A stretch of 64,000 nt of DNA from Meira nashicola. Taxonomy: Eukaryota > Basidiomycota > Exobasidiomycetes > Exobasidiales > Brachybasidiaceae. Both the position numbers and the translations under genes were made by a program. The stretch is from NCBI GenBank assembly GCA_001600355.1, contig BCJU01000001.1, positions 4,898,013 to 4,962,012 of the forward strand, written 5' to 3'. The notes under the pieces are model-generated. The model was not told where the DNA came from. It ran no database searches and saw nothing but the letters and a program-made list of their open reading frames with translations. The number at the start of each line of letters is the position of its first letter. The stretch's first letter is position 1. This document shows, one piece after another, positions 49,091 through 63,465 of this stretch.

Positions 49091-52000
49091 ATGGGATACG
49101 ACCCAATTCCTTTTCCGGATTTAACCGGATTACGTACAACTGCTCATGATCGGCATACATCTACTTCATTCATTCAAACGGAAAAGGTCTCTTCCGTGAG
49201 CTTAAAAAGTTTAAATGAATTAGCTAGCAGGCTTAATCAAGATCGCACATATCAGGATATCATCATCGCTGTCTCATTGGTGGTTCTGACGCACCTCTTA
49301 TCTCCGGAGGATGAATGCAGCGCACAAATTGCTTTATTGAATCAAGATGATGATCGAATTATCCTGCAAAATCTAAAAACTACTCGACAAACAAGAAAAC
49401 TTTTGCAATTGTCATCAATACTTGAGCAAATCTATCAGACCGATTCATCAGACAACTCAAAAATAACAGGTACGGACAATGCAATTTTGTTCTCTAGTGA
49501 AAATAAGTCAGGATTGGTGCAGAATCCCGAACTGATCAAAGATGCAGCATTCATGCTCATAGTTGAGCATCTTGATGATGGAAGATTACAATTGCAAGCT
49601 AAAGCCTCGCCACGCCATCACACCGTTCAATCTGCCGACCTCCATCTGGATCAAATAAATGCGTTGCTCAGTAGTATATGCGATGCCGACGGTCAACAAG
49701 ATACCCCACTTTTTTCGACAAGTCATTTTGACAAACGCTTTTTGGCCATTGATAATGAGAAAGCTCAACAAGCATTACAAGACATTATCTCTGGCGATCT
49801 TGAGAAGGAGCGCTTCGAATACCAATTCGAAAAAATAGCAGAGAAACAACCGAATCATATCGCTCTGGAATTTCGAGCTAGCACAAAACATTCTGCAGAT
49901 GATAGTGAGGAAGGCAATATATCGATGAATTACTCTCAAGTCAATCAAGCCGCTTCTCAAATCGGACATGCGATTCGAAACCATTCCAAATTTCACAAAC
50001 GAACAAAGGAAGGACACAATGTCGTAGCTCTATTCTTGGAGAAAAGCCATTGGACTTACATTGCCATCCTTGCAGCTCTTAAATCCGGTGCAGCTTGGTG
50101 TCCGATTGATACAGACTGGCCTTCAGCAAGACGAAAAGCGCTTTTGGCAAAATCCGGTGCATCAATAGTATTATCGGCTGGAAAAATGGTCAAAACAGCT
50201 CTATTAGAAGATCTTCCTGAAGGCATGGATATGATTGATTTGGATAATTTGAGCAGTTCGGGTTATATTGAACCCACAAGTGCTATCCAACGTGGTCGCT
50301 CATCAGATGATCTTGCTTACTTGATTTGGACGAGTGGCACGACAGGCTTACCAAAGGCAGTTGGAATACAACACAAAGCAGCTGTTCAAGCTTTACGTTC
50401 TTTGCAGGAAGTTATTCCTCATCAAGATGGTAAGAAGATTCGATATTTACAATTCTCGGCATACAATTTCGATCTGATGATCTTGGATATGTTCTACACT
50501 TGGGGCCTAGGTGGCACTTTAATTTCTAGCACTAGAGCGACATTATTGACTGACTTAATAGGCATTGCGAATGTCACACAAGCATCTCATACTCTTCTCA
50601 CACCTGCTGTGATGGCAATGACGCCAAGAGAATCTATACCTACCCTCAAAGTGGTCATCAATGGTGGTGAGAAATTGAGTCAAACAGTAGCTGACATATG
50701 GAGTAAAGATTGTTACTTGTTAAATTTGTATGGACCGGCAGAGGCCACGTTGATTGCTATGAACAGGCGTGTTCCGTCAAAAGATGTCATCAAAGCACCA
50801 AATATTGGAAGAGCATTACCCACAACTTCATGTTATGCGATCGACGCTGAAGATAACCTTGTTATAAAAGGAGCAGTAGGTCAATTGGCTCTAGGAGGAT
50901 ATCAATGTGCATTGGGTTACATTGGTGATGAAGTCAAAACGAACGAAAAGTTTCATCAACATCCAATCCTGGGTCGAGTCTATAAAACTGGAGATATGGT
51001 CAGACAGCTTCATAATGGAGAGTTTGAATACCTTGGCAGGGTGGACGATCAAGTCAAGGTGAATGGGATTCGTATCGAACTTTTAGAGATAAACGCAACT
51101 ATACGTTCATCAGTAGAAGCAATAAAGGATAGCGAGACGCTCCTGGTTATTGCTGAAGGAGGAGCACAAAAAGATGGTTCAGAGGCTCAGATTGTCAATT
51201 TCTCTGTTGTTCCCACACCAACAGGAATCGAAAAACAACTTCTTCGTCTGGATGAAGAGGCGCTTCAAATTGCATCTGCCGCTATGGATTTTGCCCAAGC
51301 CAATTTGCCGACCTATATGGTCCCATCCCTGTTCTTGATTGTGGATCATTTTCCCAAAACATCTAGTGCAAAGGTTGACCGTGAGGCACTCAAATCAGCA
51401 TTACGTGAGATCGATGTACTTGATTGGCAGAACAGACTTGCATCATCAAAAGCTGTGTCATCTGAGGAAGGCAAGCAGCCTAATGAAGCACTTCAAAATG
51501 AAAGTATATTAAGAGAAAAGCTTGCATCCATCTGTTTGATAAATGAGAGCAAGGTTGGTCGCTATACACCATTTCCGCAAATGGGTTTAGATTCAATTCG
51601 AGCAATCACTCTTGCTAGGAAACTGAATGCAGCAGGCATGCAAGTTTCAGTAGTCGATATATTGAATCATTCCACAGTAGAGAAACTTGCGCTTTGTATC
51701 TTGAGCAACTCAGTCAACAGCGTTTCACAAGATGATAAGGCACGCAAGATTCTAGATAAATTCGATCAAACCCTGCGCTCATCTATAAGTTCTTTATTTG
51801 GGAAGGCAGAAATTGATCGAATCTTGCCTTGTACGCCTTTACAGGAATCCTTGATTGCAGAAACTTTGCAAGATTCAGCAAGATATTGGCTCCATCGTCT
51901 CTACTCTTTACCAGAGCAACATGATTTCTCACGGGTGAAAGAAGCTATCAATGAGGCTGTAGATAGAATAGAAATTCTTCGAATGGCTTTTGTTGGCAGA

Positions 52001-55000
52001 GATGCATTCAAAGACAAAGATGTCTTGCCTCGTACTAGTTTTGCACAAGTTGTTCTGAAGAACGTCAAGGTCAAAGTTCTTGAGGTGCAAAATGTTAAAG
52101 ACGTCAATGACGAAGCAATCGCTCGACACTCAATGGAATTGCACAACATCAGAATCCTGGATAACCAGTGTCCTCTAGGATTCACTTATTTCAAGCATTC
52201 GAATAAATTGGTTATGCATATTCATCATGCTCTATACGATCAAACATCATTAGAATACATTGACAATGCTTTTGATAAAGCATGGCGTGGAATTGCTATT
52301 GATGGTATCGAGCCATTCTCAAAAGCTATTCCAAGTATCGTTGATCTTGACGAAAATACGATCGTCAAGAGAAAGCAAGCCTGGGAAGAGCTTTTAGCTC
52401 CATATCCGAAAGGAGAGATGATCACACTACCTAAACTTTCTATGCATGAAGATGAAATATTTGGCTCATCAATCGAGAGTAGAAGATTGGTAAGCTCGAT
52501 TAAATATGTAGATCTGACCGAAAAAGCTCAAGAATTCGGTACATCCGCTCGACCATTATTACAAACTGCTCTTGCTTTCGTGCTTGGCCGTCTCTGTGAT
52601 ACTGAGCAAATCATGTTAGGAGATGTAGTTTCTGGACGTGCCATATCTTCGCATCTGGATAATATCGTTGGTCCTGTTTTGGCAACAATGGCTGTGCCTA
52701 TCGCACTTCACCAAAACTCAACTTTTAAAATAATTTGGGATCAAGTAGGCCAATTTCATAATCGAGCTTTACCTCATGCTCACTTTTCTCTAGGGCAAAT
52801 TCGACAAATACTTGCTTTACCACGCGCATCAGAGACTTTTCATGCTGTTTTCGCTTTCGAACCTCCTGCTGATAAGGATGCACCTGTTCATGAACCTGCT
52901 ATCAAAGCGTTAGGGAATTATGGTATCGCGGTAGAGCACAGTTTAGCAATCGAAATGGAAGTTGATCCAAGCGGAAATCTGGCCATTGTTCTTAACGCCA
53001 AGAAAGGGATGATCGATCCAGTTTTGGCCGATCAGTTTCTCGATGAGCTTGAAAGTGCGATCTTGCAATTATTGAATTGTCCAGATGTACCTCTCTCTTC
53101 GATTGAGCTCGGTAAGAATGGACGTATAGGATCCGTTTCCCGCTTCCAGGTACCTGAATCAATCATGAAAGCCAGTAAATCGCCTTGTTATACTGGAATT
53201 TATCAGCATTGCGAAAGTGAACCAGACAAGATTGCTGTTGAATTTCATGAGCGTGTAGAGAGACCTTTACAATCATCTTTGGTGTCTTATTCGCAACTTT
53301 TGGAAAAGTCGTACAAGCTTGCACAACATTTATTAGCAAGTGTTCCTATCAAATCAGTCGTAGCTGTCACTATACCCAGATCACTTGACACTTATATTAC
53401 CCTTTTGGCAATTCTACGAGCAGGATATGTGTATTTGCCAGTTGATGTTGCACTTCCCGATCAGCGCAAGGAAGTACTCTTACAGGAGAGCAAGGCGAAA
53501 TGTCTCATTTGTCATACGAGCACCGCATGGCTTAAAGACACAGAAGGAAACAATCAAGTTAAAGTGATACGTATGAACGAGCTCGCTTGGCAACATACAT
53601 CATCACACGAAATCACCTTACCAAAAGTTGATATGCAGGATTCGGCATATATTTTGTTCACTTCAGGTTCGACTGGAATTCCAAAAGGCTGTGTACTTAG
53701 CCATGAGAATCTTTCGGCAACTTTAGCATCGTTTGGTAAAATGTACCAAGAATTCGCTCCAGGCTCATTTGATAAGGATGTTCGATTTTTAGCAAGAAGT
53801 ATTGAATCCTTTGATGTGGCTTTATTAGAAGCTCTTCTGCCGTTACAATACGGTGCAACAATCGTTACCGCACCTCGTCATGTGATTTTATCTGATTTGG
53901 GCAAAGCGATGCAAACTTTCAAAGTAACACATGCAGCTGTTGTACCTTCTCTCTTCTATATAGAAGGACGTAGGGTGTTACCGTCAGATTTGCCCAATCT
54001 TCGCGCTTTAATCGTTGGAGGAGAAAGGTTAACAAAAGACATTCTTGAAGCTTGGTCATCTTCTACCGTGCCGCTGCTTAATGCATACGGTCCAACAGAG
54101 GCCTGCATTGGTACATCGATTGCTAAAGTTCGACCGAATCTTTCTACAGGAAATATTGGTAAACCGTTTGGAAGTACACAGTATATTGTGCTCAAGAAAC
54201 GGATAGAAAATTCCGACTGGAGCTGTGCGATGAGAGGAGAATCAGGCGAGCTCTGCATTGCTGGTTTACAAATAGGACAATACTTAAATCAAAATGGATC
54301 AGACGCTTTTATTGAATGGCAAGGTAAACGTCTTTATCGAACTGGAGATGAGGTGTTCATGTGGCCTGATGATTCGATCGAGTATATTGGTAGAATTCAT
54401 GGTGATACTCAAGTCAAATTACGTGGTGTTAGAATTGAGCTTGGAGAGATCGATCATGTTATTAGTCAAAACGAGAAAGACATACGATCAATAACACGCT
54501 ACCTTTCTCATCCTAACCACAAACATCAAATTGTCATGTTTGCCGCTTCATCAACTTCAAGCACAAGGTCTGATGAGATACGACAAATAGACTCCGAAGA
54601 AGGTCGCATGATGAGAAACAAGCTCTTTAAGCGATGCAGGGATAGCTTACCATCCTATATGGTACCTTCCGTTATCGTGACGTTGAATTACATACCACTA
54701 GCTGCCATTTCAGGTAAATTTGACGTGAAGAAATTGAACGCTTGGTATATTTCGCAGAGTGAAATTGAACGGTTCCATTCAGAGGATACACAAGACGACG
54801 ATGAATCAAGTTCAAGAGCTTTGACTGAAGTTGAACAAATTATCAAGAATGAAATAATTCGCATGTTTGATGTGAGCAAGTTGAAGCCGTCAACGGATCT
54901 ATTCGCTCTTGGTCTTGATAGTCTCAAGATCATTGCATTATGTGGGGCGTTAAATCGTTCAGGACTTCAAATCGAGATTAGTGATGCGATGTCCAATCCT

Positions 55001-58000
55001 TCTATTGAAGGTATTGCAAAGAATTGTGGGACATTGCCACTGACGCAAGAATTGGAGAAGAAGACTGACATGAGTCGATGGGACCAATTGACTGCTACTG
55101 TGCAAAAATGTGTAGATGAAGACGTGAGGGTAGAATATGCGCTTCCCTGTTTACCGCTACAAGCTTCAATGGTTTCACAAACGCTGTTGGAATTTCAACA
55201 ATGGCAAGAGATGCCAAAGAAAGATTTACGTTTACGATACATAAATGTTTCACGATACAAAATATCGAATATTGAGATCGGCACAAAAGAGACAGTGAAG
55301 CAGGCTTTCAGAGCTATTTTATCAAGACATTCGATATACCGAACAGCTTTCGTAGAAGCTGATGATCAGATAGTACAAGCTGTTTTAAATGCAAATGACC
55401 TGAATGAGGTAACCATCAAAGAGGATGAAGAGTGGGAAATGGCTGCTGTCAGAAGCTTAGCAGAGAATATGCATCGCTGTCCGCCACTGAGATATCGGAT
55501 CACTCAAGAAGATGGATCGCAAGATATGTATTTGGATCTTGTGATCCATCATGCACTCTATGATGGTGTTTCTCTCGACGCTTTTTTTGCAGAAATAAAT
55601 TTTCATCTTACATCGGATAATGACAGTGCAAAACTCAATGGCACAAGCTTTGACAGCATTATTAAAAGAGTTGAACAAGTCAAGAAGGAAGACCGCTTAC
55701 AATACTGGCAAAAGACTCTAAACGGTTGCGATATTAATTTCTTCCCTTGCTTGACTGGCTATCAAATCAACAAGGAGCAACAAGATCTCAGCGAGATTCG
55801 ATCAAGACTCAAAATACCTCTTAGTAGTATTCAACTTAAAGCGAAGGAGAAGAAAGCAACTGTTGCTATGTTGATCTTGCATGCTTTCGCTGAGCTATAC
55901 TCAAAATATGTTGGAGAATCGGATGTAATCATTGGCTTGGTTTTGAATGGAAGGTCTAGTGAAGAAGAAGTGATTCATGGACCATGCGTTAATACAGTCC
56001 CATTCCGATACAAGCGTGAGAAGGATGATGATGCTATTCAACAAGTCCGACAATCTTATGCTCAAGCACTGCAATACCAGCATGTTTCCCTTGCAGATCT
56101 TGCTCGCCAATTTGAAGCAAACAATGGACTGTTTAACACATTATTTTCTTTTTCTGGCTCGACAGGGGAGAAGAAGCAAACTTGTTTTAAAGAAGTCTAT
56201 TCCAATCTACTTACCGAATATCCATTTGCTATTGAAGTAGGTTTGGATTCGGAACAAGATGGAATTGATATCTTGATAGCATTCGATAAATCTTTCATTC
56301 CTCTTCAGCAAGCTGAAATATTTATTTCGCAATTAGATTCAATCTTGCATAGAGATCATCATAAATTGGAGGATGCAAACTTTACAAAAAGTGAATCGTC
56401 TATCGAGAATCAAGATGCAGACAAGGTGTCGATCAAACATTTTGTTGATTTGTTCTTGGAGCAAGTCGCTCTTCGGCCGCAAGAAGTAGCATTTGCATTT
56501 ACGGAAAATTTGGAGGACAATGCTCAAACTTGCACCTATGAAGAGTTAAACAAAGTCAGTGATGTGATCGCTTTCAATTTAAGCAAATATTCAGGTGATA
56601 TTGTTGGTGTTCATATGTCCCAATGTGCGCAAGTTTATCCACTTCTTGTAGGTATTTGGAAAGCTGGCAAGACATATCTTCCTTTAGATCCAAAATTACC
56701 CGCAGATCGTTTGGATTATATCGTTTCTCTCACAAAGCCTAGCATCGTGGTTGTTCTGGAAACAAGTGCCGTACATTCTCTATTCAAATCTTCAAGTCCT
56801 ATCCCTTATTCTGAAGTCTGCTTCAAAGCATCCGATCATCAGGACAACATAGTAAAGACCAAGACGCTCGATGATATGGCTTACATTATGTTCACATCAG
56901 GCTCGAGTGGCAAACCTAAAGGTGTGGAAATATCACATCGTGCCTTGGCTGCTGCTTTAAGATCGTGGAAAGAAATATTACCTCATACACCAGGAAAATC
57001 ACGCATGCTTCAATTAGCATCACCTGGTTTTGATGTTTTCTTGATTGAAGTATGCATGCCTTTAGCATTAGGTTTCTCTTTTGCTTCTGCGCCAAAAGAT
57101 GTTCTCCTTGATGATTTAGAGAAAACATTTCATCGTTTACAACTCACAATGGCAGATTTACCGGCTGCATTGGCTACAACAGTTCATCCATCTAATTTGC
57201 CCAAATTGGAATGGCTCATGAGTGGAGGAGAACAAATGGATCAAAGAGTGATTGATGCTTGGAGCACTACAGGATTAATAAATGCATGGGGTCCAACTGA
57301 AGCTACAATTGGAAACACGTTAGGATTTGTTGAACAAGGCAGGAATAGGAATTGGATTGGATATGCTTATCCTACAAGTTCATTATATATCTTACAGCCT
57401 GATTCGAACGAAATTCTTCCACGTGGCTGTATTGGTGAAATTGCAGTCGGAGGACCTCAATTGGCAAATGGATATTACGGCAATCCATCTTTGACTGAAG
57501 AGAAATTTATTGATGTATTTATTCCAGGGCAAAGTAAAGGAACGATTCGACTGTACCGCACTGGTGATCGAGGTAGAATGTTATACGATGGTAGTATTGA
57601 ATGTCATGGACGTATAGAAGGTGATGGACAAGTAAAGATTAATTCGCAAAGGGTAGAATTAGAAGAGATTGAAATTGCATTGAAACGGCAAAAAGGAATC
57701 ACAAATGCAAGTGTTTTATATCTTTCACACCCTAAAATTCGTTCTCATCAATTAGTCGCTTTTCTGACAGCCAAAATTGAACTGTTAAACGGAAGTCAAG
57801 ATAAATCCGATCAAGTTATCTTGTTGAAAAATGAAGAAATATCCACTGAGCTTTCTCAACAATGCTTAACGAATGTAGCTCAAAGCTTGCCTGCTTATAT
57901 GGTACCTCAACATTGCTTCATTCTTGCTTCAGCATCTTTACCCTTGACACCGAATAACAAAGTCGATATCAAGAAATTGAAATCATTCTATGCTACACTA

Positions 58001-61000
58001 GAACCAAATTCATTGGGAGAGGCAAGAAGTAACACAAAACGTACAAGATTTACAAAGCCGATGGGCGAGACAGAAAAACGATTGCAAAAGCTCATCTCAG
58101 AATTCGCCGGCGTTAGTGAGTCAGAAATCGAATCGCAAACATCACTATATCGTTTCGGAATAGATAGCATTTCGGGTCTTCGCTTGGCTCGTTTTTTGCG
58201 TGACCGAGGTATAAAAGGTATTAGAGCGCAACTTATCTTCTCAGCTCCCACGGTTGCTTCAATTGCAGCCAGTATTGAGCAAAGCGACTTGATGAGCAGC
58301 AAGACGAAAGGTGATATCAGTGTAAGTCTTTCAGACGAGCTGAAGCATCGTCTAAGCCAAGAGGGCAATTTTCAAGCTTTCCCATGTACTCCGTTGCAAA
58401 ATGGTATGTTGTTGGAATCTCTCGTGAAAGAAGGTGATCTTTACATCCTTCATCAAGTATTTCGATTCAAATCTGAGTTTTTAGAGCGAGTCAAGGATGC
58501 TGTAGCAGTGTTGATCAAGCGGCATGAAGTTTTGCGATCATCTTTTTATTTGGTAGATGGTCAATTCACTCAAGTCATACGTCAAAATGCCAAATCGCAC
58601 ATAGATGTTGTGAAAACAGAGCAGGGCATGTCAGAGAAAAGCAGTATACGTCGCATTCAAGAGCGACATCGGGCAAAGATAATGTCAGAAAAAGGCCTAG
58701 AAGATGGAACTTTCCATTCTTCCATCATCAAGGGAGAAAAACATTCACTTTTAATTTTGACTTTGCATCATGCATTGTACGATGGAGAATCATTGGAATT
58801 GTTGGTAAAGGAATTAAGGCAATTGGTGAAAAATGGAAAGATTGATGAAATAGGTCCACGGTACAGTGACATTTTACCAGCTCTCTTACCATCGCCTGAT
58901 GCTGCTGATTACTGGGTGCATAGGCTCATGCACAGACAAGACTCGCTCATCCCAAGATCATCTTCGCACAATTTAAGATCGTATGATATATCATGTGATA
59001 TGAACATACAGAAGAACGATCTCGTACGATTCGCAAGAGAAATGAGTGTCTCAATTCATACTATTGCACTTTACTCCTACGCAAAATTATTGGCAGGACT
59101 CACTGGTCAGCTCTGTGTAACGTTTGCAGAGATTTTCAGTCTGCGCAATAATACGGATTTGCATGGATCGGAAACTATTTTTGGACCATGTTTCAACACA
59201 ATTTTGACGTCAATAGAAGTACGAAAGAATGAATCAACGATGGAAGCTTTACAACGATTGCAAAGAGAGATTGACCAAGGAAGAGAATATCGTAATGCTT
59301 CTTTGGCTGATATACAACGTGGCTTGATTAAACAGAGAGGTAGTTCCTGCAAGATTGACGCTTTATTTAATATGCAAGTCTTGCTTGATGAAACGATGAG
59401 TGAGGACAATGAAATAATCTCACTCTGTGAGATGGAAGATGATGGTAATCTTGATTCTACACAGTATGCTTTAAATTTTGAATTCGTTCAACGAGGAGAT
59501 ATGCTATCTTTAGTGATCAAAGCACATCAAGAATGTTTCAGCAAAGAACACTTATTAGAAACCGTCAAGAATTTCGAAAGCATTTTTAATTTCACGATCA
59601 AGAAGCCTTATGAATTCTCCACTGAGATGCCTCTGCCTCTAAACTCCCTCGAAGGATTACGTTCCGGATTAATTGATAACGATCAAAAGCAATTTTCCAA
59701 ATCATCTTATGCGCAGGATTTGAAGGATAGGAGTAATGATTCGCCCTTGCAAAGTCTCATGTTTGATACAATCGGTACTGTTTTACAAATTGATTCGACA
59801 TCTATCTCTTCGGAAACTCTTCTTTCTAGCATTGGATTGGATTCAATCGCATCTATGCACCTTGCTACTCGTTTGAGAAAAAAAGGTGTCAAGGTAGGAG
59901 TAGCGGATATCATTCAAGGTAAAACGGTCGATGGGATCATCGCAAAGATGCAATTTCGAGAGGATGAAACAAGTAAAGAACATCGAAATGGAGAGTTGCG
60001 GAAAATCGGAGAACACGAAAAATCCCTTATTGCTTCTGTTGCTAAGCAAATTGATCGAAGTGCCAATGAAATCGAAGGATGTTTGCCAACCTTACCAGGT
60101 CAATCTTTCGAACTGATTCAAAGTGGTGAGAGTGGTATTTATGTTTTTGCATATCAATTCAGAAAAGGTGCAATAGTTGATGTGGATAGATTACAGGAAG
60201 CTTGGTCTGCGTTGCGGGCCCGACATTCAATTTTACGAACTTCCTTCTTGGAACCAAATGAAAATTCAACTGGTTGGCAACAAATCGTTTTGACCAAAGA
60301 TGCAGATTCAACAAGTAAGATTGACAGCCATTCCATTCAAAAGTCGTTCATGACAGCAATCGAAGAAGATGGATTAGATTGGTTTACTTCAAAGATTCGA
60401 GTTCTTCTTCAACCTGGAAAGTGTCCTGCCGGAATAAGTTTAATACACAGTCCTGGAGGGGATGTGCTTTTGATACGATTGCATCACGCGCTTTATGATG
60501 CTTGGTCACTTCCGATATTGATGCAAGAATTCGGTAATCTTTACGATAATCGTAAGCTAGAAGATGTACCAGATTATACTACCTACGTTCGACAAGTCAG
60601 CCAACAACGTAAAAAGCTTTCAAATATTGCGCAAGAATATTGGAAGGACATTTTAGGTGATCAACAAGTACCTCGAATCCCTTTCAAGTCAATTGATCAT
60701 TCTAGCAGTCGAGAGGGTAAATCATTCATCTTTTTGCAGAATGCACTTACCAATGTCCGTGAAAGGGAGAAAAGGTTAATAAGATGTTATGGTGGACTTC
60801 CAGCATTGATAATGGCATCTTGGGCAACAATTTTGACGTATATCTGCAAACCTACAAACTCAATGAAATCGACATTTGGACTTTATTTGACTGGAAGGAA
60901 TGAATCATTTGATGGTATTGAACGAATGACGGGAAATCTTACGAATATTGTTCCAGTGGTTGCATCAATGGAAGAGACAAATCTATGTGTTTACGATACG

Positions 61001-61429
61001 TCAAAAAGTGTCTTGTTGCGTTTGGCGAATCAAATAAAGACTCAATTGGATGAACATAGTCATTTAGATTGCTTCACTTCAATAAAGGATATCTTGGATT
61101 GGACTGGAAATGACGTGATACCATGGAATAGTACTTTGAACTTATTATGGCCACGAGAAGAAGGTTTAGTGGATAAAGAAGCAAATTCAACTTTCACTAT
61201 GATTAAAGATCTTTTAACTAAACCGTATGAAAAGAAGAATGACAAATGTGAAAGAGATATTCGTTCTATTGATGCATACGCTAATGTGCAAATTGACATT
61301 CAATTCGATCCAAAGACTGATAATTTACATTTTGGCGTTAAATGGGATAATGCATTATGGTCTTCTTCTCAAGTGGAAAAGATTATGCATGATTTTTGCC
61401 AACTCATTCAGGTGGGAAGTGCGGAGTAA
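49091..61429 (+). CDS. Nonribosomal peptide synthetase of the ferrichrome (hydroxamate siderophore) type
   Basis: A single 12.3 kb exon encodes 4112 residues from the ATG at 49091 (MGYDPIPFPDL); the frame extends 16 codons upstream to a GTG. Reading motifs in order gives A1 (TSGTTG at 414, YGPAEA near 545), T1 (GLDSI, Ser835), C1 (HHALYD from 1045), A2 (TSGSTG near 1523, YGPTEA near 1663), T2 (GLDSL, Ser1944), C2 (HHALYD from 2153), A3 (TSGSSG near 2600, WGPTEA near 2731), T3 (GIDSI, Ser3026), C3 (HHALYD from 3226), T4 (GLDSI, Ser3585) and C4 (HHALYD from 3798). There is no thioesterase; the protein ends in C4, as in fungal ferrichrome synthetases, where terminal C domains cyclise the hexapeptide of Gly/Ser and acyl-hydroxyornithine. 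All four carrier serines and all C-domain histidines are intact. The exact siderophore cannot be read. Confidence 0.9.
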   Translation: MGYDPIPFPDLTGLRTTAHDRHTSTSFIQTEKVSSVSLKSLNELASRLNQDRTYQDIIIAVSLVVLTHLLSPEDECSAQIALLNQDDDRIILQNLKTTRQTRKLLQLSSILEQIYQTDSSDNSKITGTDNAILFSSENKSGLVQNPELIKDAAFMLIVEHLDDGRLQLQAKASPRHHTVQSADLHLDQINALLSSICDADGQQDTPLFSTSHFDKRFLAIDNEKAQQALQDIISGDLEKERFEYQFEKIAEKQPNHIALEFRASTKHSADDSEEGNISMNYSQVNQAASQIGHAIRNHSKFHKRTKEGHNVVALFLEKSHWTYIAILAALKSGAAWCPIDTDWPSARRKALLAKSGASIVLSAGKMVKTALLEDLPEGMDMIDLDNLSSSGYIEPTSAIQRGRSSDDLAYLIWTSGTTGLPKAVGIQHKAAVQALRSLQEVIPHQDGKKIRYLQFSAYNFDLMILDMFYTWGLGGTLISSTRATLLTDLIGIANVTQASHTLLTPAVMAMTPRESIPTLKVVINGGEKLSQTVADIWSKDCYLLNLYGPAEATLIAMNRRVPSKDVIKAPNIGRALPTTSCYAIDAEDNLVIKGAVGQLALGGYQCALGYIGDEVKTNEKFHQHPILGRVYKTGDMVRQLHNGEFEYLGRVDDQVKVNGIRIELLEINATIRSSVEAIKDSETLLVIAEGGAQKDGSEAQIVNFSVVPTPTGIEKQLLRLDEEALQIASAAMDFAQANLPTYMVPSLFLIVDHFPKTSSAKVDREALKSALREIDVLDWQNRLASSKAVSSEEGKQPNEALQNESILREKLASICLINESKVGRYTPFPQMGLDSIRAITLARKLNAAGMQVSVVDILNHSTVEKLALCILSNSVNSVSQDDKARKILDKFDQTLRSSISSLFGKAEIDRILPCTPLQESLIAETLQDSARYWLHRLYSLPEQHDFSRVKEAINEAVDRIEILRMAFVGRDAFKDKDVLPRTSFAQVVLKNVKVKVLEVQNVKDVNDEAIARHSMELHNIRILDNQCPLGFTYFKHSNKLVMHIHHALYDQTSLEYIDNAFDKAWRGIAIDGIEPFSKAIPSIVDLDENTIVKRKQAWEELLAPYPKGEMITLPKLSMHEDEIFGSSIESRRLVSSIKYVDLTEKAQEFGTSARPLLQTALAFVLGRLCDTEQIMLGDVVSGRAISSHLDNIVGPVLATMAVPIALHQNSTFKIIWDQVGQFHNRALPHAHFSLGQIRQILALPRASETFHAVFAFEPPADKDAPVHEPAIKALGNYGIAVEHSLAIEMEVDPSGNLAIVLNAKKGMIDPVLADQFLDELESAILQLLNCPDVPLSSIELGKNGRIGSVSRFQVPESIMKASKSPCYTGIYQHCESEPDKIAVEFHERVERPLQSSLVSYSQLLEKSYKLAQHLLASVPIKSVVAVTIPRSLDTYITLLAILRAGYVYLPVDVALPDQRKEVLLQESKAKCLICHTSTAWLKDTEGNNQVKVIRMNELAWQHTSSHEITLPKVDMQDSAYILFTSGSTGIPKGCVLSHENLSATLASFGKMYQEFAPGSFDKDVRFLARSIESFDVALLEALLPLQYGATIVTAPRHVILSDLGKAMQTFKVTHAAVVPSLFYIEGRRVLPSDLPNLRALIVGGERLTKDILEAWSSSTVPLLNAYGPTEACIGTSIAKVRPNLSTGNIGKPFGSTQYIVLKKRIENSDWSCAMRGESGELCIAGLQIGQYLNQNGSDAFIEWQGKRLYRTGDEVFMWPDDSIEYIGRIHGDTQVKLRGVRIELGEIDHVISQNEKDIRSITRYLSHPNHKHQIVMFAASSTSSTRSDEIRQIDSEEGRMMRNKLFKRCRDSLPSYMVPSVIVTLNYIPLAAISGKFDVKKLNAWYISQSEIERFHSEDTQDDDESSSRALTEVEQIIKNEIIRMFDVSKLKPSTDLFALGLDSLKIIALCGALNRSGLQIEISDAMSNPSIEGIAKNCGTLPLTQELEKKTDMSRWDQLTATVQKCVDEDVRVEYALPCLPLQASMVSQTLLEFQQWQEMPKKDLRLRYINVSRYKISNIEIGTKETVKQAFRAILSRHSIYRTAFVEADDQIVQAVLNANDLNEVTIKEDEEWEMAAVRSLAENMHRCPPLRYRITQEDGSQDMYLDLVIHHALYDGVSLDAFFAEINFHLTSDNDSAKLNGTSFDSIIKRVEQVKKEDRLQYWQKTLNGCDINFFPCLTGYQINKEQQDLSEIRSRLKIPLSSIQLKAKEKKATVAMLILHAFAELYSKYVGESDVIIGLVLNGRSSEEEVIHGPCVNTVPFRYKREKDDDAIQQVRQSYAQALQYQHVSLADLARQFEANNGLFNTLFSFSGSTGEKKQTCFKEVYSNLLTEYPFAIEVGLDSEQDGIDILIAFDKSFIPLQQAEIFISQLDSILHRDHHKLEDANFTKSESSIENQDADKVSIKHFVDLFLEQVALRPQEVAFAFTENLEDNAQTCTYEELNKVSDVIAFNLSKYSGDIVGVHMSQCAQVYPLLVGIWKAGKTYLPLDPKLPADRLDYIVSLTKPSIVVVLETSAVHSLFKSSSPIPYSEVCFKASDHQDNIVKTKTLDDMAYIMFTSGSSGKPKGVEISHRALAAALRSWKEILPHTPGKSRMLQLASPGFDVFLIEVCMPLALGFSFASAPKDVLLDDLEKTFHRLQLTMADLPAALATTVHPSNLPKLEWLMSGGEQMDQRVIDAWSTTGLINAWGPTEATIGNTLGFVEQGRNRNWIGYAYPTSSLYILQPDSNEILPRGCIGEIAVGGPQLANGYYGNPSLTEEKFIDVFIPGQSKGTIRLYRTGDRGRMLYDGSIECHGRIEGDGQVKINSQRVELEEIEIALKRQKGITNASVLYLSHPKIRSHQLVAFLTAKIELLNGSQDKSDQVILLKNEEISTELSQQCLTNVAQSLPAYMVPQHCFILASASLPLTPNNKVDIKKLKSFYATLEPNSLGEARSNTKRTRFTKPMGETEKRLQKLISEFAGVSESEIESQTSLYRFGIDSISGLRLARFLRDRGIKGIRAQLIFSAPTVASIAASIEQSDLMSSKTKGDISVSLSDELKHRLSQEGNFQAFPCTPLQNGMLLESLVKEGDLYILHQVFRFKSEFLERVKDAVAVLIKRHEVLRSSFYLVDGQFTQVIRQNAKSHIDVVKTEQGMSEKSSIRRIQERHRAKIMSEKGLEDGTFHSSIIKGEKHSLLILTLHHALYDGESLELLVKELRQLVKNGKIDEIGPRYSDILPALLPSPDAADYWVHRLMHRQDSLIPRSSSHNLRSYDISCDMNIQKNDLVRFAREMSVSIHTIALYSYAKLLAGLTGQLCVTFAEIFSLRNNTDLHGSETIFGPCFNTILTSIEVRKNESTMEALQRLQREIDQGREYRNASLADIQRGLIKQRGSSCKIDALFNMQVLLDETMSEDNEIISLCEMEDDGNLDSTQYALNFEFVQRGDMLSLVIKAHQECFSKEHLLETVKNFESIFNFTIKKPYEFSTEMPLPLNSLEGLRSGLIDNDQKQFSKSSYAQDLKDRSNDSPLQSLMFDTIGTVLQIDSTSISSETLLSSIGLDSIASMHLATRLRKKGVKVGVADIIQGKTVDGIIAKMQFREDETSKEHRNGELRKIGEHEKSLIASVAKQIDRSANEIEGCLPTLPGQSFELIQSGESGIYVFAYQFRKGAIVDVDRLQEAWSALRARHSILRTSFLEPNENSTGWQQIVLTKDADSTSKIDSHSIQKSFMTAIEEDGLDWFTSKIRVLLQPGKCPAGISLIHSPGGDVLLIRLHHALYDAWSLPILMQEFGNLYDNRKLEDVPDYTTYVRQVSQQRKKLSNIAQEYWKDILGDQQVPRIPFKSIDHSSSREGKSFIFLQNALTNVREREKRLIRCYGGLPALIMASWATILTYICKPTNSMKSTFGLYLTGRNESFDGIERMTGNLTNIVPVVASMEETNLCVYDTSKSVLLRLANQIKTQLDEHSHLDCFTSIKDILDWTGNDVIPWNSTLNLLWPREEGLVDKEANSTFTMIKDLLTKPYEKKNDKCERDIRSIDAYANVQIDIQFDPKTDNLHFGVKWDNALWSSSQVEKIMHDFCQLIQVGSAE

Positions 61430-62439: not shown

Positions 62440-63465
62440 ATGAGTACCTTATCCGATTCAGGCGACATTTCGATAGAATCTAATGGCTTTCAAAAATCCC
62501 TTCAAGTTTTATCTACTTCACCTATCAAATCGCAATCGAGCACTAAAACACTTCGTCGTAAACGTAGTAGTGCAAATGCAGCATTAACATCAAGACCTTC
62601 TCTTTTGAATTTACGCGGTGATAATCGTGTTCAAATTTTGAACAAAGCGCAAATGTCACCAACTTCGAATAAAATGCTTCATGCAAATTTATTAGGATTA
62701 ACTTCAAATTTGGACGAATCGATGAATTTACCAGAAAGTATGACAACTCTTACGATTGGAAATGATCATTTTTCAGATACAAGTGAATTTAAATCGGAAA
62801 GTGTATTTAGTTCATCTGCCACTGATTCGGAAACAAGTGCTACTTTCTCGGATGGATCAATGTCAAGAAGGCAAAGTTGGGATGTAGAAGAAGAAAATGG
62901 TTGTAACTTACCGATCAATGAAAGTATCGAACGTAACAGGTTGATTCTAGCTCATATCATCACAACTTATGATCAAAATGACAACATTCAAAGTAAGACT
63001 CTCGGTCATGCACTTATTACGCCCAATATATTGATCACCAGCAATGCTCAGATTACTCCAATTCATGATTTGAACAAATGGACAAGTTTGCGTGCAACAG
63101 TGGAACAATCTAGAATCGTTGCTATGTGTGGAGATGAAAGAAAGAGAACGTTTGAGATGGAAACTGAACATACAATTTCATCAACAAAGTATGTCTCAAC
63201 GTTTTATTTACAATCAGACATGAATGCATGTGATGGCGAAGAAGTAGGACAAAGCGGAGGAAAGCTTTTCAAGATTATAGTTCACGGCTTAGGAAAGTTT
63301 AATGAAGCCAGAATGGAATCTTTGCCTGAACAATTAAGTGCACTTATCCGTCAATCAAGCGAAATAGAAGAATACTCTAGAGCTGATCAACATATCAAGG
63401 TGAACAGCGGTGATGCTCAAATTGTCTCCAAGATTCTTCGGCTAGTGGCAGAGAATGATGTGTAA
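62440..63465 (+). CDS. Protein of unknown function
   Basis: I do not recognise this 341-residue protein. The ATG at 62440 follows a pyrimidine-rich leader, and the frame is open with no need for an intron. The N-terminal about 150 residues are Ser/Thr-rich and disordered, with a basic patch (TLRRKRSSANAAL) and a Ser/Asp/Glu run (SSSATDSETSATFSDGS). From about 160 to the end the sequence is more ordered and beta-rich in appearance. Segments include RLILAHIITTYDQND, LGHALITPNILITSNAQITP, KYVSTFYLQSD and LFKIIVHGLGKFNEARMESL, ending in a helical LPEQLSALIRQSSEIEEY and SKILRLVAEN. No signal peptide or membrane helix is seen. The C-terminal part could be a PH-like or other small beta domain, which is only an impression. 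Confidence 0.75.
   Translation: MSTLSDSGDISIESNGFQKSLQVLSTSPIKSQSSTKTLRRKRSSANAALTSRPSLLNLRGDNRVQILNKAQMSPTSNKMLHANLLGLTSNLDESMNLPESMTTLTIGNDHFSDTSEFKSESVFSSSATDSETSATFSDGSMSRRQSWDVEEENGCNLPINESIERNRLILAHIITTYDQNDNIQSKTLGHALITPNILITSNAQITPIHDLNKWTSLRATVEQSRIVAMCGDERKRTFEMETEHTISSTKYVSTFYLQSDMNACDGEEVGQSGGKLFKIIVHGLGKFNEARMESLPEQLSALIRQSSEIEEYSRADQHIKVNSGDAQIVSKILRLVAENDV

Follow-up and report, generated by a model that had tools for sequence, protein, structure and literature searches.

A probable Type I (Sid2-type) ferrichrome synthetase with an N-terminal half condensation domain in a Meira-like exobasidiomycete

Introduction

What would a fungal siderophore synthetase make if its three complete modules were followed by a single terminal T-C unit? 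The question is raised by an NRPS gene at 49091..61429 (+) of the window, the 64,000-nucleotide stretch of DNA analysed here. A preliminary description of this DNA regarded the single terminal T-C unit as odd and suggested that it might alter module iteration, and perhaps ring size, in an otherwise ferrichrome-type enzyme. Six ferrichrome synthetase architectures were described by Bushley et al. in 2008 (PMC2644324). One of these, Type I, consists of three A-T-C modules and one terminal T-C unit and is known from sid2 of Ustilago maydis, the product of which is ferrichrome and for which one glycine and two N5-acetyl-N5-hydroxy-ornithine (AHO) adenylation domains were predicted (PMC2644324). 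The single T-C unit is therefore the published plan of a ferrichrome-making enzyme, and the expectation of altered iteration or ring size is not supported.

Our reading, to which we give a probability of about 0.85, is that the gene is a Type I (Sid2-type) ferrichrome synthetase of a Meira-like exobasidiomycete that would release desferri-ferrichrome by the steps proposed below. The enzyme type is a known one; what is added is the Sid2-type ferrichrome synthetase of a Meira-like fungus.

Results

The gene is one open frame of 4112 codons with a single terminal stop, a run without stops that has a chance probability of about 10^-113 at the base composition of the window. Its start coincides with the first Met of the Meira miltonrushii protein, MAYDLIPFPDLTG. 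Three AMP-binding, four Condensation and four PP-binding stretches were recognised by Pfam in the encoded protein (P0001), and no thioesterase was found by the same scan of its 4112 residues. The domain order according to profiles derived from this protein and related ones is A-T-C-A-T-C-A-T-C-T-C. All four carrier serines (S835, S1944, S3026 and S3585) are in place, and all four C domains carry HHALYD. The preliminary description had reported this order, the single frame, the missing thioesterase and the intact carrier serines and HHxxxD motifs, and in these respects it was accurate. It had also considered that a degenerate unit might have been missed: no further A, T or T-C unit was found by Pfam or the built profiles, but a half condensation domain at the N terminus had been overlooked. 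The full layout is (half-C)-A-T-C-A-T-C-A-T-C-T-C.

The affinities of the domains were examined in trees of 93 A domains and 135 C domains, both drawn from 31 proteins (the query, a second NRPS of the same genome and 29 proteins chosen by hand from two listings of 120), with SH-aLRT as the only support measure. A domains shorter than 350 residues and C domains shorter than 280 were excluded, among them one Pyrenophora A domain, one CsNPS2 C domain and Acaromyces C4, and each omission lowers the numbering of the domains behind it by one. Outgroup trees combined 16 of the 31 proteins with eight other NRPSs taken from those two listings, each outgroup contributing its first three A and first three C domains. 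The 24 outgroup A domains formed a clade of their own (SH-aLRT 99) with no ferrichrome-family A domain inside it; in the corresponding C tree the outgroups split over more than one clade and the root was weak (73).

The first complete module comprises A1 (49814..51457, +), T1 (51482..51703, +; Ser835) and C1 (51809..53065, +; HHALYD at 52223-52240). A1 lies beside SidC A2 with SH-aLRT 100, with and without outgroups, and the first module of SidC is absent here. The second module consists of A2 (53186..54802, +), T2 (54815..55030, +; Ser1944) and C2 (55127..56350, +; HHALYD at 55547-55564), and the third of A3 (56441..58045, +), T3 (58055..58279, +; Ser3026) and C3 (58370..59590, +; HHALYD at 58766-58783). 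T4 (59732..59953, +; Ser3585) has no A domain of its own and precedes the terminal, predicted cyclising domain C4 (60068..61411, +; HHALYD at 60482-60499). C1 to C4 pair with SidC C2 to C5 at SH-aLRT 99, 97, 99 and 95 (99, 99, 99 and 95 with outgroups), and C4 belongs to a clade (SH-aLRT 100) that unites the terminal C domains of the proteins sampled.

The pocket codes obtained by alignment are DLLLIGLLIK for A1, DVLVIGAIGK for A2 and DVILMGAIGK for A3. Among the 16 Type I proteins read, the ending GAIGK occurs in every A2, in 15 of the A3 domains (the remaining one is cut short) and in no A1. The same ending is found in A3 of Aspergillus SidC, of the Botrytis protein and of Fusarium NPS2, with the variants GGIGK in Pyrenophora NPS2 and GAIMK in a five-C enzyme of Violaceomyces; Type VI codes end in GFIGK, as in CsNPS2 and the Coprinopsis enzyme, or in GLIGK. 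Fifteen of the 16 Type I proteins have DLLLIGLLIK or DLMLIGLLIK as their A1 code, the Malassezia protein being the exception, and this near constancy suggests one conserved substrate, of the glycine type by homology with SidC. The 10-residue code failed to predict substrates for A domains of this family (Bushley et al., PMC2644324), so substrate calls made from it are weak. Comparison with solved structures points the same way for the predicted AHO-type domains: the hydroxamate-ornithine adenylation domain SidN A3 (PDB 3ITE) is the best match of A2, with 267 bits, and takes rank 7 for A3 (192 bits) and rank 21 for A1 (143 bits). The stretch compared was longer for A2 (672 residues) than for A3 and A1 (545 and 548 residues).

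A2 might alternatively not be an AHO domain at all, with A3 alone loading T3, T4 and, backwards, T2, and A2 either idle or loading glycine. In the trees without outgroups A2 and A3 sit in separate clades and A2 has no firm placement with SidC A3, and strict A8 and A10 motif patterns fail to match A2. Against this, A2 groups with SidC A3 at SH-aLRT 99 once outgroups are added, is of all domains of the protein the closest to SidN A3, shares its code ending with all its Type I counterparts, and carries core motifs A3, A5 and A7 as well as the A10 lysine, which was found by alignment. We regard the alternative as very improbable and take A2 as an acyl-hydroxyornithine-type domain. A3 is probably of the same type, given its code, its match to SidN and its joining of the A2/SidC A3 group and the Type VI A domains, at SH-aLRT 88 and only with outgroups.

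Among the matches listed the closest is a protein of Meira miltonrushii (Brachybasidiaceae, Exobasidiomycetes), 76% identical over the full length, and two further proteins match at 75%. In contigs of bacteria and archaea the only relative was one bacterial NRPS stretch with 24% identity. In a count with domain length filters, which took in the query and the top 48 other proteins of the listing, the Type I plan was present in 38 of these 48 best-scoring relatives (39 of 49 with the query); those sharing it include Ustilaginales proteins named as ferrichrome synthetases, and the named ones are mostly from Ustilaginomycotina. Of the ten that lack it, three have six modules, five are shorter, and in two a domain fell below the filter, T3 in one and C4 in the other. 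The first His of HHxxxD is altered in C4 of 16 and in C2 of 15 of the 39 plan-sharing proteins, and the T1 serine pattern is missed in four, so that the intact motifs are a feature of P0001 rather than of the whole type. U. maydis Sid2 itself was absent among the matches listed, and the orthology is thus to relatives of Sid2.

The other described architectures fit less well. The protein has three full A-T-C modules, one T-C unit and no thioesterase, as in Type I. Pfam and the profiles show only one A-less terminal T-C unit, where Type II (SidC) has two. The NPS2 lineage (Types IV and V) has six C domains and an NPS2-group terminal C domain, whereas the present protein has four and its C4 falls with SidC C5; Type VI has one A domain followed by T-C units, and there are three A domains here. 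The closest relatives, the domain trees (including those with non-siderophore NRPSs) and the A-domain pockets together uphold the earlier suggestion of a ferrichrome-type enzyme with a cyclising terminal C domain.

A scheme for Type I synthesis has been proposed from SidC biochemistry (PMC10192304), in which SidC A2 made glycine chains on its own carrier in vitro even with its C domain inactivated, and SidC A3 supplied AHO both to the T domain of its own module and to A-less T domains downstream if their C domains were present. By analogy, a phosphopantetheinyl transferase would arm T1 to T4, and A1, as the homolog of SidC A2, would activate glycine and build tri-glycine on T1 without a condensation domain. 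A2 would load AHO on T2, and A3, behaving like SidC A3, would load T3 and reach the A-less T4, which it could serve because T4 has its C3 and loading in SidC needs the downstream C domains. C1 would then join tri-glycine to the first AHO, C2 and C3 would each add the next AHO, and C4 would close the ring, freeing a hexapeptide, desferri-ferrichrome. With two AHO-type A domains one A-less T-C unit would be enough, and neither a second terminal T-C unit nor a change of ring size would be needed. The most likely product, judged from the domain content, is a six-residue ring, ferrichrome.

A less likely product, to which we give a minor chance, is a ferrichrome relative that differs in a backbone residue, in the acyl group of hydroxyornithine or in ring size, with seven residues if A1 contributed four glycines. 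The glycine specificity of A1 comes from homology alone, ring variants such as tetraglycylferrichrome are known (PMC10192304), and two acetyltransferase-like genes in the genome would allow more than one acyl group; the nearly identical A1 codes of the Type I proteins and the ferrichrome made by Sid2, likewise of Type I, argue instead for ferrichrome.

The N-terminal half domain (49118..49744, +; residues ~10-218) corresponds, by profiles and the predicted model, to the C-terminal half of a condensation domain from which the active-site half with HHxxxD is missing. In the predicted model it packs on A1 as in complete C-A pairs, and the stub and A core together superpose on the C-A pair of Txo1 as one body. 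The most likely explanation is that it is a remnant of a C domain that formerly stood ahead of A1, and its retention is probably due to the support that the C-lobe gives to the A domain. We consider it improbable that the domain was recruited separately for an unrelated role, for instance in docking of a partner. Its fold is also known in single-lobe acyltransferases, with dihydrolipoamide acyltransferases of similar length among the Foldseek matches of the stub (rank 7 and others), and in the C-lobe tree the N-termini of Type I proteins fall together on long branches with their source not placed; in that tree the SporReil, Botrytis and Armillaria N-termini fill less than half of the kept columns, and some are spread over the alignment. 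The profile matches to C domains, the superposition on Txo1 and the VIA search, in which the 50 rows shown were all C, heterocyclisation, X or related NRPS or PKS domains, speak against recruitment, as does the scoring against domain classes (10 sequences per class, five draws), in which 14 of 19 Type I and 11 of 12 Type VI N-termini scored best with the SidC C domain that stands ahead of the corresponding A domain. We therefore retain the remnant of a C domain as the preferred explanation.

Which C domain left the remnant is less clear. The best-class scores of several Type VI N-termini were just 3 to 11 bits, Basidiobolus gave a near tie between two classes, and those of nine SidC-type N-termini were mostly like those of shuffled letters (best 6.6 bits). 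In profile comparisons the Type I N-termini matched SidC-type C1 at 97.8%, Type I C2 at 96.9%, six-module C1 at 96.5%, Type I C1 at 95.9% and SidC-type C2 at 92.3%, and barely matched SidC-type C3-C5, Type I C3-C4 and Type VI C domains (0.1 to 29%). For Type VI N-termini several C classes were nearly equal (96.8 to 98.1%). The N-termini of SidC-type proteins matched a single class at 94% and each of the remaining C classes at 4% or less. The stub itself is secure; its exact origin is not settled by the tree, the scoring or the profiles.

A second siderophore-type NRPS is encoded on the contig of the window, at C1:4765966-4773606 (+) (locus L020:1467-9107), ~173 kb upstream of the NRPS of the window. 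Its 2547 residues, counted from a mechanical TTG start, have the order A-T-C-T-C-T-C of Type VI, the basidioferrin/coprinoferrin plan, with SHTIYD in the first C domain and PHTHYD in the last. Its A domain groups with CsNPS2 (SH-aLRT 100), and relatives occur in Ceraceosorus and Sympodiomycopsis. Two synthetases in one species were also seen in Violaceomyces palustris, which has a Type I and a five-C Type II-like enzyme (P0012 and P0087), and U. maydis likewise has both Sid2 and Fer3 (PMC2644324).

Three proteins have six complete A-T-C modules: P0010 of Basidiobolus meristosporus (6834 aa) and P0031 and P0033 of Rhizophlyctis rosea (6693 and 6793 aa). Their terminal C domains lie inside the ferrichrome-type terminal C clade, that of P0033 in the C-lobe tree, and in the outgroup tree the A domains of P0010 and P0031 lie outside the clade of other NRPSs; the codes of Basidiobolus A4-A6 end in GAIGK and those of A1-A3 do not.

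The 17.88-Mb genome (20 contigs) was searched for the remaining pathway genes. Its strongest match for an ornithine monooxygenase of the SidA/Sid1 type is a candidate at C3:2606999-2608240 (E 2.7e-58), which lies near the housekeeping genes for GMP synthase and a carbamoyl-phosphate synthase small chain; the Pfam family is broad and also has matches in 12 of 14 control genomes, and the candidate is therefore named by the strength of its match. Acetyltransferase candidates are two PF13523 matches above the cut-off on contig C2, and phosphopantetheinyl transferase candidates lie at C1:4308410 and inside a 1916-aa frame on C5. The window holds 19 frames of at least 200 aa, of which the NRPS and 16 of the 18 others were scanned with Pfam, a scan outside which short exons fall; no siderophore gene was recognised among these 16. 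The neighbours include a chaperonin, a RabGAP, a purine-synthesis enzyme, an ATP synthase subunit and a protein with a translation-initiation-factor domain, with a RhoGAP just upstream, and three scanned frames had no Pfam match. A 341-aa frame without a Pfam match lies downstream of the NRPS at 62440-63462 (+). The upstream stretch contains one WGATAA where 2.2 are expected, and thus no sign of iron-GATA control. Since the monooxygenase candidate is on another contig near housekeeping genes, the pathway is not clustered with the NRPS; its genes appear to be present in the genome and unclustered at this locus.

Discussion

Judged from its sequence, the gene adds a Meira-like fungus to those with a Sid2-type ferrichrome synthetase, and the comparison shows how frequent the plan is among its relatives. 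The overlooked half domain bears on how such enzymes can be handled. If it is a required scaffold, this would agree with the high instability reported for a SidC A2-T2 pair lacking its C domain (PMC10192304) and would tell where such enzymes can be cut. Truncated C domains are mentioned for other NRPSs in a figure abbreviation (PMC6737921). No account of a half C domain at the N terminus of Sid2-type enzymes was found in open-licence full texts, a scope that most subscription papers fall outside.

A hexamodular ancestor was proposed by Schwecke and by Bushley, whose survey of one chytrid and two zygomycetes turned up no candidate (PMC2644324), and siderophore activity and siderophore-clade A domains have been reported for Basidiobolus (PMC7466969). 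The six-module proteins look like that ancestor in their domain plan, and we found no paper that says so in its title or the start of its abstract. They would make the reconstructed ancestor testable in living fungi. Our tentative view, held at somewhat less than even odds, is that ferrichrome-family synthetases were shortened from the N terminus more than once, each time with a break between the lobes of a C domain, because the C-lobe has to remain and hold up the A domain that comes first: Type I would have kept it ahead of the glycine module and Type VI ahead of the hydroxy-ornithine module, and the long form would survive in the co-linear six-module enzymes of Basidiobolus and Rhizophlyctis.

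Among known systems the closest counterpart is Sid2 of U. maydis, with which the present enzyme shares three A-T-C modules, one terminal T-C unit, the lack of the first SidC module and, with A3 probably of this type, two AHO-type A domains. It differs in being 34-36% identical to relatives in Ustilaginales and near kin, and in a genome that has its monooxygenase candidate on another contig, whereas sid2 is said to lie in a ferrichrome gene cluster, reportedly so named in the title of the 2001 sid2 paper by Yuan. SidC of Aspergillus (Type II, ferricrocin) shares the C domains, C1-C4 being equivalent to SidC C2-C5, and the first two A domains, A1 and A2 being equivalent to SidC A2 and A3, but carries an additional module at the start, and a single AHO A domain serves its two A-less terminal T-C units. 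The Type VI enzymes CsNPS2 and Cpf1 (basidioferrin and coprinoferrin) share the AHO part of the line and the N-terminal half C domain; they have one A domain and no glycine part, a plan that the second NRPS of this genome fits. SidN A3, the best solved match of A2, comes from another fungus and an enzyme with another product, epichloenin A (PMC3642064).
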